From positions 1 through 39,882 of IMG/VR virus record IMGVR_UViG_3300036884_000107: a DNA stretch of 39,882 bases; one strand, given 5' to 3'. The DNA is from a virus. This document shows, piece by piece, positions 7,079 through 33,026 of this stretch. The first letter of the stretch is position 1. Each line of letters opens with the position of its first letter. The position numbers were made by a program, and so were the translations under genes. The notes beneath the pieces were generated by a model. The model saw only the letters and a program-made list of their open reading frames with translations. It did not search any database and was not told the DNA's origin.

Positions 7079-7191
7079 GGATTACCTCCAATAGATCCCA
7101 ACCCACACGCAAAGGCCATCATCAAAACAAAGAAGACCCCTATAAAGAACCATTCCCAGTAAAAGTGTTTACGATAATCAGCGTATTTCAT
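7075..7191 (-). CDS. Small single-pass membrane protein (38 aa)
   Basis: One hydrophobic segment (about residues 13-32: EWFFIGVFFVLMMAFACGLG) after a charged N-terminus (KYADYRKH). It has a GGGAG ribosome site and its TGA overlaps the NinG start (ATGA), so its translation is coupled to NinG. The role is unknown. Confidence 0.55.
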   Translation of the reverse strand: MKYADYRKHFYWEWFFIGVFFVLMMAFACGLGSIGGNP

Positions 7192-7205
7192 AGGTTTTCT
7201 CCCTT

Positions 7206-7238
7206 CCGCACGCAATCCCATGTCTTAATTGTGTGCGG
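7206..7238. repeat. 11-bp inverted repeat upstream of the membrane-protein/NinG genes
   Basis: The arms are CCGCACGCAAT (7206-7216) and ATTGTGTGCGG (7228-7238). As plus-strand RNA the arms pair fully with one G-U; as minus-strand RNA there is one A-C mismatch. The loop is 11 nt. No U-run follows, so it may be a protein-binding site or an mRNA structure just before the GGGAG ribosome site. Confidence 0.5.
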
Positions 7239-7252
7239 CTGGCAGGAAGCCT

Positions 7253-7453
7253 CTACTCATCCTCCGAGCTTTGACTTTGGATCGGACTAGGAGGAGTCGG
7301 TTTGAGATGGCTTGTTTCTTTCACCAAGTCCCATTTCTTGTGGACGTAACATAATTGCTTATCCGGTGGTACATGCAAAGACCAATCTCCCAAGCGTCTG
7401 GAACACCCTGGAAACCTGCATAATCCTCTATAGCGCATATCGTTTGGCAGCAT
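7253..7453 (-). CDS. Cys-rich small protein (66 aa)
   Basis: The N-terminal half has four possible zinc ligands (LCRFPGC, QLCYVHKKW) and the C-terminus is a Pro/Ser tail ending in acidic residues. The real start is the ATG at 7453, with GGAGATAACT in front; the upstream TTG in the same frame lies within that ribosome site. No family recognised. It lies 2 nt after the preceding gene. Confidence 0.55.
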   Translation of the reverse strand: MLPNDMRYRGLCRFPGCSRRLGDWSLHVPPDKQLCYVHKKWDLVKETSHLKPTPPSPIQSQSSEDE

Positions 7454-9497: not shown

Positions 9498-9634
9498 AAT
9501 GTATGCCTTTTGTATGTACACTTTCCGCAGTTCAAACCCCCCTCTGATACTAACTCTAATACCTCCCTCCGTTCTCGGGCTCCCTCCGGAGATGATAGTT
9601 AGGCCACCCTAGAGTCTTGTCTAGGTCAAAGTGT
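9498..9634 (-). other. Intergenic regulatory gap (137 nt)
   Basis: No gene seen on either strand. It contains two CATAC half-sites 11 nt apart close to the ribbon-helix-helix start, a CTCC/GGAG short hairpin region (about 9580-9595), CTCTAGGGTGG and a CTAGACAAG copy (9614-9622) preceded by TTGAC. A promoter for the regulator gene is expected here, but I cannot define a convincing -10. Confidence 0.4.
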
Positions 9635-9982
9635 CTAGTTATCTCCCTCAGTCGCTGTCGAACGTACGGCATTGTGAGCTACTCCACTTTCGTGTGTAGA
9701 TGGGTAGTCCGTTCCCCGTCCCTCATCAAATTCTGTTTTCTGATTAATGTCATTCCATTGTTCATCTGTACATTTAGCAACAAACGCTAAAATTCTTAAA
9801 TTGCGGGATTTTCTTTCTTCTCCAAGTGGTCTTGTTAATTTAGTTGTAATCCAATAAGCAACGGATTTTCTATTTGGAAAACGGGAATATCGACTACGAA
9901 TTACTTCAATATCAAAAGGGAGTAAATGATATTTTTTTGCTAATTGTTTATGAAGATTGATAAAAAATTCTTTTCTTTCCAT
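9635..9982 (-). CDS. Hypothetical protein controlled by a structured leader (115 aa)
   Basis: A basic N-terminal two-thirds (EFFINLHKQLAKKYHLLPFDIEVIRSRYSRFPNRKSVAYWITTKL, then KSRNLRILAFVAKCTDEQW) and an acidic, disordered tail. No family recognised. The ATG sits immediately after a terminator-like hairpin and T-run, without a Shine-Dalgarno, so expression should depend on the folding of the leader. It precedes the ribbon-helix-helix and excisionase-like genes and may be part of the same switch. Confidence 0.6.
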   Translation of the reverse strand: MERKEFFINLHKQLAKKYHLLPFDIEVIRSRYSRFPNRKSVAYWITTKLTRPLGEERKSRNLRILAFVAKCTDEQWNDINQKTEFDEGRGTDYPSTHESGVAHNAVRSTATEGDN

Positions 9983-9984
9983 AT

Positions 9985-10033
9985 AAAAACCGTCTTGCCT
10001 CTTGGTTGTGGTTGCCCCAAGACGGGCGCAACC
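9985..10033 (-). promoter_or_regulatory. Candidate transcription attenuator: terminator with competing hairpin
   Basis: On the minus strand the terminator stem CCGTCTTG (10025-10018) / CAAGACGG (9997-9990) is followed by TTTTT (9989-9985). Its 5' arm is buried in an alternative stem, GGTTGCGCCC (10033-10024) with GGGGCAACC (10018-10010), nine pairs with one bulged G. Both cannot form together. A further outer arm, AACCGT, about 10 nt upstream, can also pair with the ACGGTT at the 3' side. This layout fits a riboswitch, attenuator or protein-controlled leader. Confidence 0.55.
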
Positions 10034-10072
10034 AAAAGGAAAAACGGTTCTATCTTGGTATTTCCAGTTACT

Positions 10073-10101
10073 ATTATACTATGTCTGTCAATACTCTGCA
10101 A
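10073..10101 (-). promoter_or_regulatory. Promoter upstream of the structured leader
   Basis: A perfect TATAAT (10078-10073) with TTGCAG (10101-10096) 17 nt upstream. The predicted start near 10066 gives a leader of about 84 nt to the ATG at 9982. A TTGACA only 7 nt upstream of the -10 is wrongly spaced for sigma70. Confidence 0.5.
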
Positions 10102-30830: not shown

Positions 30831-31073
30831 TTAGCTTGCCGTGGTCACAGCTACCCATGTACCTGTAGCAACACTGCAAGAATATATTCTATCATTTGTC
30901 GTTGTTCCTGCTACGTTCAAGTAAATAGACCCTTTTGGCGCTGCAAAAGACGGCGCACCTGTACCAAAACAAAGGGCTGGCGCTGCTCCTGCACCTAATG
31001 TAATCGCTATTGAACCTGCTGTTCCAGCAACTACATCATTTGAAAGTGCTGGTTCGTATTGTTTTACATCCAT
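30831..31073 (-). CDS. Small virion protein, paralogue of the previous gene (80 aa)
   Basis: Related to the gene at 30581 along almost the whole length; the two are a tandem duplication. The shared W-V-A-V end resembles the tail-end domain at 19993. The CFG-TG-AP pattern is distinctive. Ribosome site AAGGAGGATATT. Likely a minor capsid or decoration protein. Confidence 0.55.
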   Translation of the reverse strand: MDVKQYEPALSNDVVAGTAGSIAITLGAGAAPALCFGTGAPSFAAPKGSIYLNVAGTTTNDRIYSCSVATGTWVAVTTAS

Positions 31074-31109
31074 AATATCCTCCTTAAATTTTTAATATTG
31101 AGAATCCGT

Positions 31110-31138
31110 CTTAGCACTCCCCCCTCGGAAGTGCTAAG
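31110..31138 (-). other. 12-bp hairpin between decoration gene and small virion genes
   Basis: On the minus strand CTTAGCACTTCC (31138-31127) pairs with GGGAGTGCTAAG (31121-31110) around a GAGGG loop, with one G-U pair. There is no U-run, so it is unlikely to be a simple terminator; an RNA stability or processing element after the decoration gene is more likely. Confidence 0.55.
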
Positions 31139-31145
31139 CGAATCA

Positions 31146-31895
31146 TCAATCAATCTGCAATAATGCAGTGATACAATGTGCACTGGCTGCTGCCTGACGT
31201 ACCACACCAACTCTTTGATGTGTCGTTCCTGCGGCATAAACCGTTACACAACCTGCTGTACCAGACGGTGTTCCGACATCTGAACCAACCGCAAAGGTCG
31301 ATCCATCAGAAAGAACTGAACAAACTCCATGCGTCTGAATCCATCCATATTGCGAAAGCGCAATCGGATAAATCGCAACTCCAACAGCCATACCTGTTTG
31401 GGTCGTTGCGGGAGCCTGAATGACTCCTGACCATGGACTCTCGTTCATATTAACCTTGGCATTGGTCGTGTATGCATAGCGAAGTGGGCGATCAAGCCAC
31501 ACTTTGAGTGCTCCACCAGTCGTCAATGTTCCCGTCACGGCGGTAATTGTATATTCATCTCCAACTGCTACAGTTCCTGCGGTATAGGCATTAATTGTTC
31601 CACCTTTGAATTGATCGCTGGTGATTGTCGCTGTACCGTTGGTTACTTGAAGATATGCATCTCCAACTACCCCTGCTGTACCAATTGCCATGTTCTCATA
31701 CGTTGTATCCTCAACGGCTTCCTGGAGTAAATTTCCAGTCACCAATGCGGCTCCACCATTAAGAACATACCGGAATGCTTTTCCAGTTTTGCCATCCCAG
31801 ACCAGTTGGCCTATTGTTAAGCCAGCTGCCGGTGAGGCGGTAGACGTATAGAGTCCAAGAGACCCTAACGTTGCCAATCCTGAAATTCCTGCCAT
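31146..31895 (-). CDS. Head decoration or head fibre-like protein (249 aa)
   Basis: Gly/Ala/Thr-rich, beta-stranded protein placed directly downstream of the major capsid gene, with repeated (A/V)-x-G-D-x-Y segments (AVGDEYTITAV, VVGDAYLQVT, GSDVG). Its N-terminus MAGISGLATLGSLGLYTST is typical of capsid surface proteins. It most likely binds the outside of the HK97-like capsid. AAGGAGGTTTAT ribosome site. Confidence 0.55.
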   Translation of the reverse strand: MAGISGLATLGSLGLYTSTASPAAGLTIGQLVWDGKTGKAFRYVLNGGAALVTGNLLQEAVEDTTYENMAIGTAGVVGDAYLQVTNGTATITSDQFKGGTINAYTAGTVAVGDEYTITAVTGTLTTGGALKVWLDRPLRYAYTTNAKVNMNESPWSGVIQAPATTQTGMAVGVAIYPIALSQYGWIQTHGVCSVLSDGSTFAVGSDVGTPSGTAGCVTVYAAGTTHQRVGVVRQAAASAHCITALLQID

Positions 31896-31928: not shown

Positions 31929-33026
31929 TTAAATACCTGTTATCGCTGTCAATGCACCCAATCTCCGAGGTTGGTCTGTCATTAAATTACCAATGACATA
32001 CACCCGAGCGATTGTTCCAGCTTGATTTGGCATGACCAATTCTTTCTGGAAGAACCACCCATTATATTCACTCGGAAGGTCAAGAGCTTGTGCTCCTGAT
32101 CCCTCATAGGCTTTCATCGTTCCAAGATTCACTTTCTCAATGAACCCTTTCCAATCTTCTGGAACTACATGACGACCTGCCCAGAACAGATAATTTTCAT
32201 TCAGCATGTACAGATAACCTGTCGTGCAGAAATCATCTTTCACAATCGGAAGATTGCGGAAGGTCAGTGCATTGAATCCAATGCCACCGGCAATATTATC
32301 TTTGGACTTCTCTATTCTCGTTCCCCGTACAGACATGGCATTATACCCGAATGAGGTATATTCCTGTCGTACTGTCGGGTTCAAGAGAGACTCATAGAGA
32401 GACCAGACTGCTTTGGTCGTTAAACCAATCGTCGGTTCACTCATTTGTAGTCCACTTGCTGAAATGGTATCCATAAGGGTTGCCATCTTCGCAAGAGTAA
32501 GAGTTCCGCTGGAACTGGTAACAGTCGAATTCAACTGTGTGTACGTTGCTCTGGACTGTCCGCCAATCGTTCCTGAATCAAGAACGCAATTTCCCAGACC
32601 ATTCATCTGGTTTCCTGCTCCTGTTCCATAGAACGCACTTCCCAACGCTTGAAGCGCTTGGGCTTTTGCTTTCTCATACTTGAACACATCAAGCGGAATC
32701 GCTTGCTGTTCACCTGAGTTTGCAAAACTTTCCACCATCACACTCACCTTCGGTTGCTCAAAATTTGTCTGAGCATACGAAAGGGGAATCGTGGTTACTA
32801 CAGATGATGCGTCTAAGGTCTCAAGACCATTAAACCACTGTCCCTGCGTGTCACTTACCACGTCAACTGTAAAATCCATCGTCTTCCCAACAAACGGTCT
32901 GCCATTTCCCATGAAACGAGAAATCCCGGTTGGAGACTGTAAAATGTTATCGACAACTTTGGCGTAGATTTTTTGATATGTAAAATTATCTACGTTATTG
33001 CCGAATTGGGCTCCATCATATGCCAT
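31929..33026 (-). CDS. Major capsid protein (365 aa)
   Basis: Position between scaffold and decoration gene, high Ala/Thr/Gly content and length (365 aa) fit an HK97-fold coat protein. Recognisable features are an N-terminal arm (YDGAQFGNNVDNFTYQKIYAKVVDNIL), LSYAQTNFEQPKVSVMV (E-loop-like), FYGTGAGNQMNGLGN, a central domain (LTTKAVWSLYESLLNPTVRQEY) and the C-terminal strands (GRHVVPEDWKGF). I do not see a maturation protease, so scaffold removal is probably by exit. A strong ribosome site (GAAGGAGAATAAT) fits high expression. Upstream is a terminator preceded by an extended -10 promoter. Confidence 0.75.
   Translation of the reverse strand: MAYDGAQFGNNVDNFTYQKIYAKVVDNILQSPTGISRFMGNGRPFVGKTMDFTVDVVSDTQGQWFNGLETLDASSVVTTIPLSYAQTNFEQPKVSVMVESFANSGEQQAIPLDVFKYEKAKAQALQALGSAFYGTGAGNQMNGLGNCVLDSGTIGGQSRATYTQLNSTVTSSSGTLTLAKMATLMDTISASGLQMSEPTIGLTTKAVWSLYESLLNPTVRQEYTSFGYNAMSVRGTRIEKSKDNIAGGIGFNALTFRNLPIVKDDFCTTGYLYMLNENYLFWAGRHVVPEDWKGFIEKVNLGTMKAYEGSGAQALDLPSEYNGWFFQKELVMPNQAGTIARVYVIGNLMTDQPRRLGALTAITGI

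Follow-up and report, generated by a model that had tools for sequence, protein, structure and literature searches.

A leader RNA of 84 nucleotides, encoded directly ahead of a small orphan gene in the DNA of an uncultured virus, is almost certainly a real, conserved and structured RNA that had previously gone uncatalogued; its plan is that of a promoter, a 5' tail, a pseudoknot-capable terminator, a U-run and a start codon. The best explanation of this arrangement, to which an even chance of being correct is assigned, is a cis-acting transcription attenuator in which the tail of the transcript forms a pseudoknot with the loop of its own terminator. Attenuation within the leader is most likely coupled to co-occlusion of the ribosome site, and the leader probably decides the switching-on of the gene that follows it. 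The DNA analysed is the complete viral record of 39,882 bp (hereafter ‘the window’), and the leader is numbered on its minus strand.

The leader extends from position 10066 to position 9983 and was predicted to fold at -37 kcal/mol (z -6.0; shuffled sequences reached -18, and 0 of 200 were as good). It was among three outlier regions in a fold scan of 3,980 segments covering both strands. The minimum free energy structure is a single stem, composed of an 11-bp base (P1, AGAACCGTTTT/AAGACGGTTTT), a U·C mismatch, a further 11 bp (P2, CCTTTTGGTTG/CAACCAAGAGG) and a 4-bp tip (P3) that carries the loop GTCTTG and a 5-nt bulge, AACCA, on its 3' side. The features of the region, all on the minus strand, are as follows.

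10096-10101, minus strand: weak -35-like hexamer TTGCAG, 17 nt upstream of TATAAT
10073-10078, minus strand: -10 hexamer TATAAT, placed 6 nt upstream of the conserved 5' end of the RNA
10058-10066, minus strand: TGGAAATAC, where the transcript is predicted to begin, its nine bases being invariant in the window and in the related phages G001 and G012
10052-10057, minus strand: tail CAAGAT, 5' strand of the pseudoknot, pairing with the loop at 10018-10023
10041-10051, minus strand: 5' strand of P1, base of the terminator stem (fold, pair counts)
10029-10039, minus strand: 5' strand of P2, preceded by an unpaired U at 10040 (double changes)
10024-10033 with 10010-10018, minus strand: 5' and 3' arms of an alternative hairpin, GGTTGCGCCC and GGGGCAACC, a co-transcriptional intermediate on the predicted folding path
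10014-10027, minus strand: P3 tip hairpin, GCCC-GTCTTG-GGGC (fold, pair counts)
10018-10023, minus strand: apical loop GTCTTG, 3' strand of the pseudoknot (tail complementarity)
10009-10013, minus strand: 3' bulge AACCA, which repeats the top of P2 and permits a slipped hairpin
9998-10008, minus strand: 3' strand of P2 (fold)
9998-10003, minus strand: AAGAGG, the sole Shine-Dalgarno-like (SD-like) stretch, within the 3' strand of P2 and 15 nt before the ATG
9986-9996, minus strand: 3' strand of P1, preceded by a C at 9997 (fold)
9985-9989, minus strand: terminator U-run TTTTT (sequence)
9635-9982, minus strand: orphan open reading frame of 115 amino acids, net charge +4, beginning right after the U-run

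Related phages were located through their terminase, portal and capsid proteins and were then read region by region, and covariance-model matches were obtained by applying cmsearch to the whole of the fetched regions. The same layout was spotted by eye at 18319-18241 in G001, whose terminase is 68% identical, and a covariance model for which the window was the only input matched both G012 (50 bits, E 6e-10) and G001 (33 bits, E 2.6e-5) within the 390 kb searched. Independently of that model, a generic scan for T-runs preceded by long hairpins turned up a more diverged leader in G022, which is a phage contig from the bin of a Brocadia genome. The long-type leaders thus number four, and three of them, all from a single phage clade, show covariation in full; the fold z-scores of the leaders in G001, G012 and G022 are -4.3, -7.3 and -5.8, respectively. 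All four present the GC-containing stem and subsequent U-run of an intrinsic terminator (in the window, a 22-bp stem followed by UUUUU). A search of all viral contigs for the pattern TGGAAATAC...AGAGG...TTTTT returned 69 stretches, of which the only real ones were those of G001 and G012. An exact 19-mer from the 3' arm of the leader found zero matches in viral contigs, and the upstream HNH gene, when used as an anchor, led to one distant relative in which the neighbourhood differed and the leader was absent.

Pairs were counted on an alignment derived from the folds; MAFFT had misaligned P2. The tails of the window, G001 and G012 (CAAGAT, TGTCTA and TTGAAC) are complementary to their respective apical loops (GTCTTG, TAGACA and GTTCAA), so that all 18 of the 18 possible tail-loop pairs across the three genomes are standard ones, with double changes at every one of the six positions. 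When the tail was slid along the leader as a control, a single register among 485 gave 18 of 18 pairs, its neighbour gave 17, and the best unrelated register gave 15. Shuffling of individual members yielded P values for the tail-loop match of 0.003-0.04, which are modest and whose product would be post hoc; the register shared among members is stronger evidence than these values. Within the stem, double changes were found at 4 of 4 pairs in P3 and at 7 of 11 in P2, with none broken. The 3' bulge has counterparts in G012 (AACCA) and G001 (CCCA), and counterparts of the slipped hairpin can be read from the sequences of G001 (CTGG/CCAG) and G012 (CTGGT/ACCAG). One further candidate, an 11-bp tail-loop match in G005 (L037, position 10694), was left uncounted; it lies opposite to the genes and has no ATG.

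These counts bear upon the simplest alternative, in which the leader is an ordinary strong intrinsic terminator or 5'-untranslated-region hairpin serving to insulate the gene behind it, and in which the match between tail and loop is incidental. Its stem and U-run are canonical, the stem dominates energetically, and conservation of P1 and P2 alone would be expected of a plain terminator. The alternative is nonetheless judged improbable: it leaves without explanation the complete tail-loop pairing in a common register with double changes at all positions in three close members, the 9-bp match between tail and loop in G022 (GTGAAGAGA with TCTCTTCAC) and the shuffle values of the single members, and the presence of a promoter upstream means that the leader's own transcript must pass the terminator.

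The strand upon which selection acts can also be specified. The leader folds contain 3 to 7 G-U pairs each and zero A-C pairs, and the opposite strand of the leaders folds 8 to 21 kcal/mol worse; selection therefore acts on the RNA transcribed as the minus-strand leader. Roles at the level of DNA (a recombination site, a replication origin or an operator) were rejected on the grounds that G-U pairs replace A-C pairs on the leader strand.

The sequence-only reading of this DNA had described an attenuator-type layout, and in that respect it holds, with a promoter-proximal conserved structure, competing pairings and a terminator at the start codon. Every sequence piece that it named lies on the minus strand (including TATAAT at 10073-10078 and AACCGT at 10044-10049), as do both of its proposed hairpins, GGTTGCGCCC at 10024-10033 with GGGGCAACC at 10010-10018, and CCGTCTTG at 10018-10025 with CAAGACGG at 9990-9997. 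The interpretation placed on these two hairpins is supported in part. The first appears in the minimum free energy fold of prefixes of 58-66 nt, and gives way when the 3' arm of the stem has been synthesised; neither is the dominant fold, and by themselves the two amount to -15.3 and -11.4 kcal/mol, far below the full stem. The second had been taken to be the terminator, a role that falls instead to P1, which forms the conserved terminator base. The compensatory changes in related phages that had been proposed as a check were found, in the tail-loop pairing and in P2 and P3. The suggestion of a small-molecule riboswitch gained no support: none of the Rfam 15 covariance models matched the window at its gathering score, relaxed thresholds gave only chance-level matches, and no conserved aptamer-like core was seen beyond TGGAAATAC and AACCA/CCCA.

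The leader promoter is a predicted one, based upon the hexamers listed above; a TTGACA at 10086-10091 is too near TATAAT to act as its -35 element. A -10-like hexamer also lies 5-6 nt ahead of TGGAAATAC in both G001 and G012, and equivalent promoter hexamers are found in G012 (TTGACC-17-TATTGT) and G022 (TTGACT-17-TATATT). At the other end of the leader, the ATG (9980-9982) stands close behind the T-run, as had been claimed, but is separated from TTTTT by the two bases AT rather than following it immediately. An open frame with its ATG 0-2 nt past the U-run is likewise present in G001, G012 and G022. In all four long-leader phages codon scores favour this frame over the other five (in the window, 0.267 in frame and negative in the others). 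The leader of the window thus has a predicted promoter upstream and a gene immediately behind its terminator, and equivalents of both exist in G001, G012 and G022. Because the promoter stands ahead of a terminator that sits on the start codon, the gene would be expressed only by read-through.

The 115-residue product matched no Pfam family, and searches of viral contigs, genomes, phages and plasmids returned no usable relative; a single 41-residue match, in L002, was set aside, as it sits within an unrelated large protein. The downstream proteins of the window and G001 show no detectable similarity to each other, although their leader RNAs are related. In all four long-leader phages the small ORF is followed by a purine-rich and apparently non-coding stretch of 100-230 nt (9520-9640 in the window; L132, L133 and L134 in the others), for which no Rfam match was found and which, in the window, shows no unusual folding.

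Hairpins are established as occluding the ribosome binding sites of I-TevI, segB and mobE, homing-endonuclease genes of the T4 type (PMC2988022). The hairpins described here might accordingly be thought to act in the same manner, upon translation rather than transcription. A Shine-Dalgarno sequence (GGGAG, AGGGG or AAGGGG) does indeed lie 6-8 nt upstream of the ATG, within the 3' arm of the hairpin, in the leader of G016, the leader of G022 and a second element in G022, and the gene behind the G016 leader encodes an HNH endonuclease. Occlusion of the ribosome binding site as the sole mechanism is nevertheless considered highly improbable, since a GC-rich stem placed directly before 5-7 U residues should also terminate transcription. 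The Shine-Dalgarno element is moreover displaced or weak in the window, G001 and G012, where the SD-like AGAGG sits 15-18 nt from the ATG, beyond normal spacing; a site within the stem at about 8 nt from the AUG, as in the T4-type genes, is found in G016 and G022 and not in the window. The T4-type hairpins are still the nearest counterpart in which a hairpin covers the start codon of a phage gene. The leaders described here differ from them by the addition of a U-run terminator, an adjacent promoter, a conserved 5' end and a tail-loop pseudoknot, and most of them precede genes other than endonucleases. We know of no tail-loop covariation in the T4 endonuclease hairpins.

In the attenuation mechanism that is favoured, RNA polymerase would start near TGGAAATAC and produce the leader of ~84 nt. 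As the apical loop emerged, the 6-nt tail could pair with it, while P2/P3 formed a hairpin in either its regular or its slipped form; in this pseudoknotted state, which would precede the synthesis of the P1 3' strand, the P1 5' strand (11-12 nt) would act as linker within an H-type pseudoknot. Were that linker to zip onto the P1 3' strand instead, the result would be the 22-bp stem that, with the U-run, acts as an intrinsic terminator, and the completed stem would also bury the sole SD-like stretch, AAGAGG. How much transcription reads through into the small gene that starts at 9982 would depend on the balance between tail-loop pairing and terminator. The alternative pairing of tail and loop is retained in homologues with double changes, and its incompatibility with the terminator is a steric argument: tail-loop pairing and complete P1 should be mutually exclusive on geometric grounds, because the tail abuts P1 without a linker while the loop lies ~26 bp away. 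At equilibrium the terminator fold (-37) far exceeds the tail-loop state, so any switch must be kinetic or driven by a factor; phage or host factors, antisense RNA and polymerase speed are candidate biasing inputs. The RNA fold is directly supported, as are its strand-specific covariation, the covariation of tail with loop and, in four genomes, the arrangement of U-run and ATG; that the leader terminates transcription, that polymerase reads through, in which direction the switch works and what triggers it are inferred from the sequence. The small ORFs downstream show no detectable homology, which would be odd for a dedicated cis-acting switch.

The closest logic among known systems is that of the antisense attenuators of the pT181 repC type, in which the 5'-untranslated region forms either a terminator before the gene or a fold that permits transcription (PMC3753616). 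The two have in common a 5'-untranslated-region terminator just before a gene; the phage leader differs in that its tail pairs with its own terminator loop, its sequence is unrelated and no antisense RNA is known for it.

The main rival to attenuation is that the leader is a stand-alone, trans-acting small RNA, stable at ~84 nt, with occasional read-through serving the gene behind it; it might resemble P4 CI or c4, use its loop to bind another copy's 5' tail, or form a dimer. The P1 c4 immunity RNA is a short phage RNA with complementary segments, a terminator and a small ORF. P4 CI and the Gifsy-1 IsrK RNA are likewise short phage RNAs, with complementary segments placed upstream and downstream within a single leader, a terminator and a small ORF behind it; IsrK provides a precedent for a small RNA and an mRNA leader in one, and P4 CI causes termination by pairing with seqA/seqC (PMC4825925). 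Exactly one RNA is delimited by the promoter, the conserved 5' end and the strong terminator, that RNA is related among phages while the proteins behind it are not detectably so, and the complementarity of tail and loop persists through complete sequence change, as in self-recognising antisense systems. The small-RNA explanation is still held to be rather unlikely, as an ATG stands behind the U-run in every member, which would be needless for a pure small RNA, and no second complementary site was identified. P4 CI and IsrK are the nearest phage precedents for leaders with internally complementary segments, from which, together with c4, the present leader differs in that the window phage has no integrase and that no processing site or second target was seen; a sequence relation would not be expected.

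Searches for integrase and resolvase domains (PF00589/PF00239) found none in the window, G001 or G012, the records of which may be incomplete, and a role in lysogenic immunity is unsupported in these phages. The same holds for the earlier proposal that the leader decides between lysis and lysogeny, the gene that it precedes being without known relatives. A type III toxin-antitoxin system (ToxIN-like), in which a tandemly repeated pseudoknot RNA precedes a protein of the ToxN/CptN/TenpN family, was also rejected: the leader is a single unit with no tandem copies, and the protein matched no Pfam family. Tyrosine integrases are encoded by two relatives (G005:27559-27978 and G018:30221-30700) and not by the window; temperate and lytic phages may both occur in the clade.

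Several additional features of the window were recorded. Its major capsid protein (31929-33026) is 32% identical to that of the TM7 phage DolZOral124_53_65 and 31% identical to that of a spring-water phage, each of which has a chaperonin gene in its record; the resemblance hints at a candidate-phylum host for the clade. The minus strand at 31100-31160 contains TTAGCACTTCCGAGGGGGGAGTGCTAA, which is one base off the consensus of the CIRCE heat-shock operator, TTAGCACTC-N9-GAGTGCTAA; this site forms part of a larger hairpin (z -5.8), and the Shine-Dalgarno sequence and start codon of a gene that begins at 31073 follow directly. A very stable hairpin, CCGCACGCAAT-N11-ATTGTGTGCGG with its flanks, occupies 7181-7264 (z -7.4 in 84-nt windows) and folds better on the plus strand, the neighbouring genes being on the minus strand.

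Examination of the sister phages revealed short leaders of the same plan, numbering 7 in G005, 7 in G009, 6 in G016, 6 in G018, 5 in G010, 3 in G022 and 1 in G012, counts that include a few duplicates or chance entries. Block-shuffled genomes contained 0-1 each, 582 kb of unrelated viral DNA gave 11 matches (mostly long, weak hairpins), and the window and G001 contained no convincing short leaders. The short leaders stand before portal, capsid, small-terminase and tail genes, and a recurrent form (an extended -10, a short tail complementary to the hairpin base, a terminator-like hairpin, a U-run and an ATG) was noted ahead of many structural genes in the relatives' regions L036, L037, L039-L041, L043, L045-L048 and L129. 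Among the G005 leaders, 6 of 6, differing in sequence, have a 4-nt tail that can pair with the base of the terminator 5' arm (with pairs such as GGTC/GACC, GAGT/ACTC, GAGC/GCTC and AGGT/ACCT). In most leaders of G009 and G010 the spacer from tail to hairpin is ACACA; its counterpart is of a TTTC type in G005 and of a TTTA type in G018 and G022. The G016 leader ahead of the HNH endonuclease gene combines an 8-bp tail-loop match with a Shine-Dalgarno sequence in the stem, and there again the U-run is followed by the ATG, a gene start that agrees with those of homologues. The long pseudoknotted leaders and the short ones share a plan, a likeness of layout rather than demonstrated common descent.

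Pairing between the 5' end of a transcript and the 5' arm of its terminator is also possible in the PyrG leader (RF02371). The second leader of G022 (L137) matches that family weakly and below threshold (28.9 bits against a gathering score of 65, E 0.24), and the window leader does not match it at all. At the second terminator-before-ATG of G022 (L128, 3640-3710), with its weak PyrG_leader match, GGAAAGTAAGG, which lies where the upstream gene ends, complements the terminator 5' arm over 11 bp.

In the late leader of phage lambda (pR'/6S/tR'), a promoter, a short leader and a terminator precede phage genes and are controlled by Q. The plan described here is similar and is repeated before several operons; it differs in that its terminator, located at +45 to +85, falls on the start codon, and no Q-like protein was identified. 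It is possible, if still doubtful, that the leaders constitute a clade-wide attenuation regulon that governs most operons, including those for capsid and portal, through pairing of the tail with the hairpin or loop as the antiterminator, read by one phage-encoded factor per genome, with the window leader as its early-region member.

What sets the leader apart is that the 5' end of a transcript can pair with the tip of its own terminator, through a pairing maintained by compensatory evolution in an RNA that belongs to no Rfam family. If the regulon does exist, it would predict a trans-acting antitermination factor, and would show how an uncultured group of phages times the expression of its genes.
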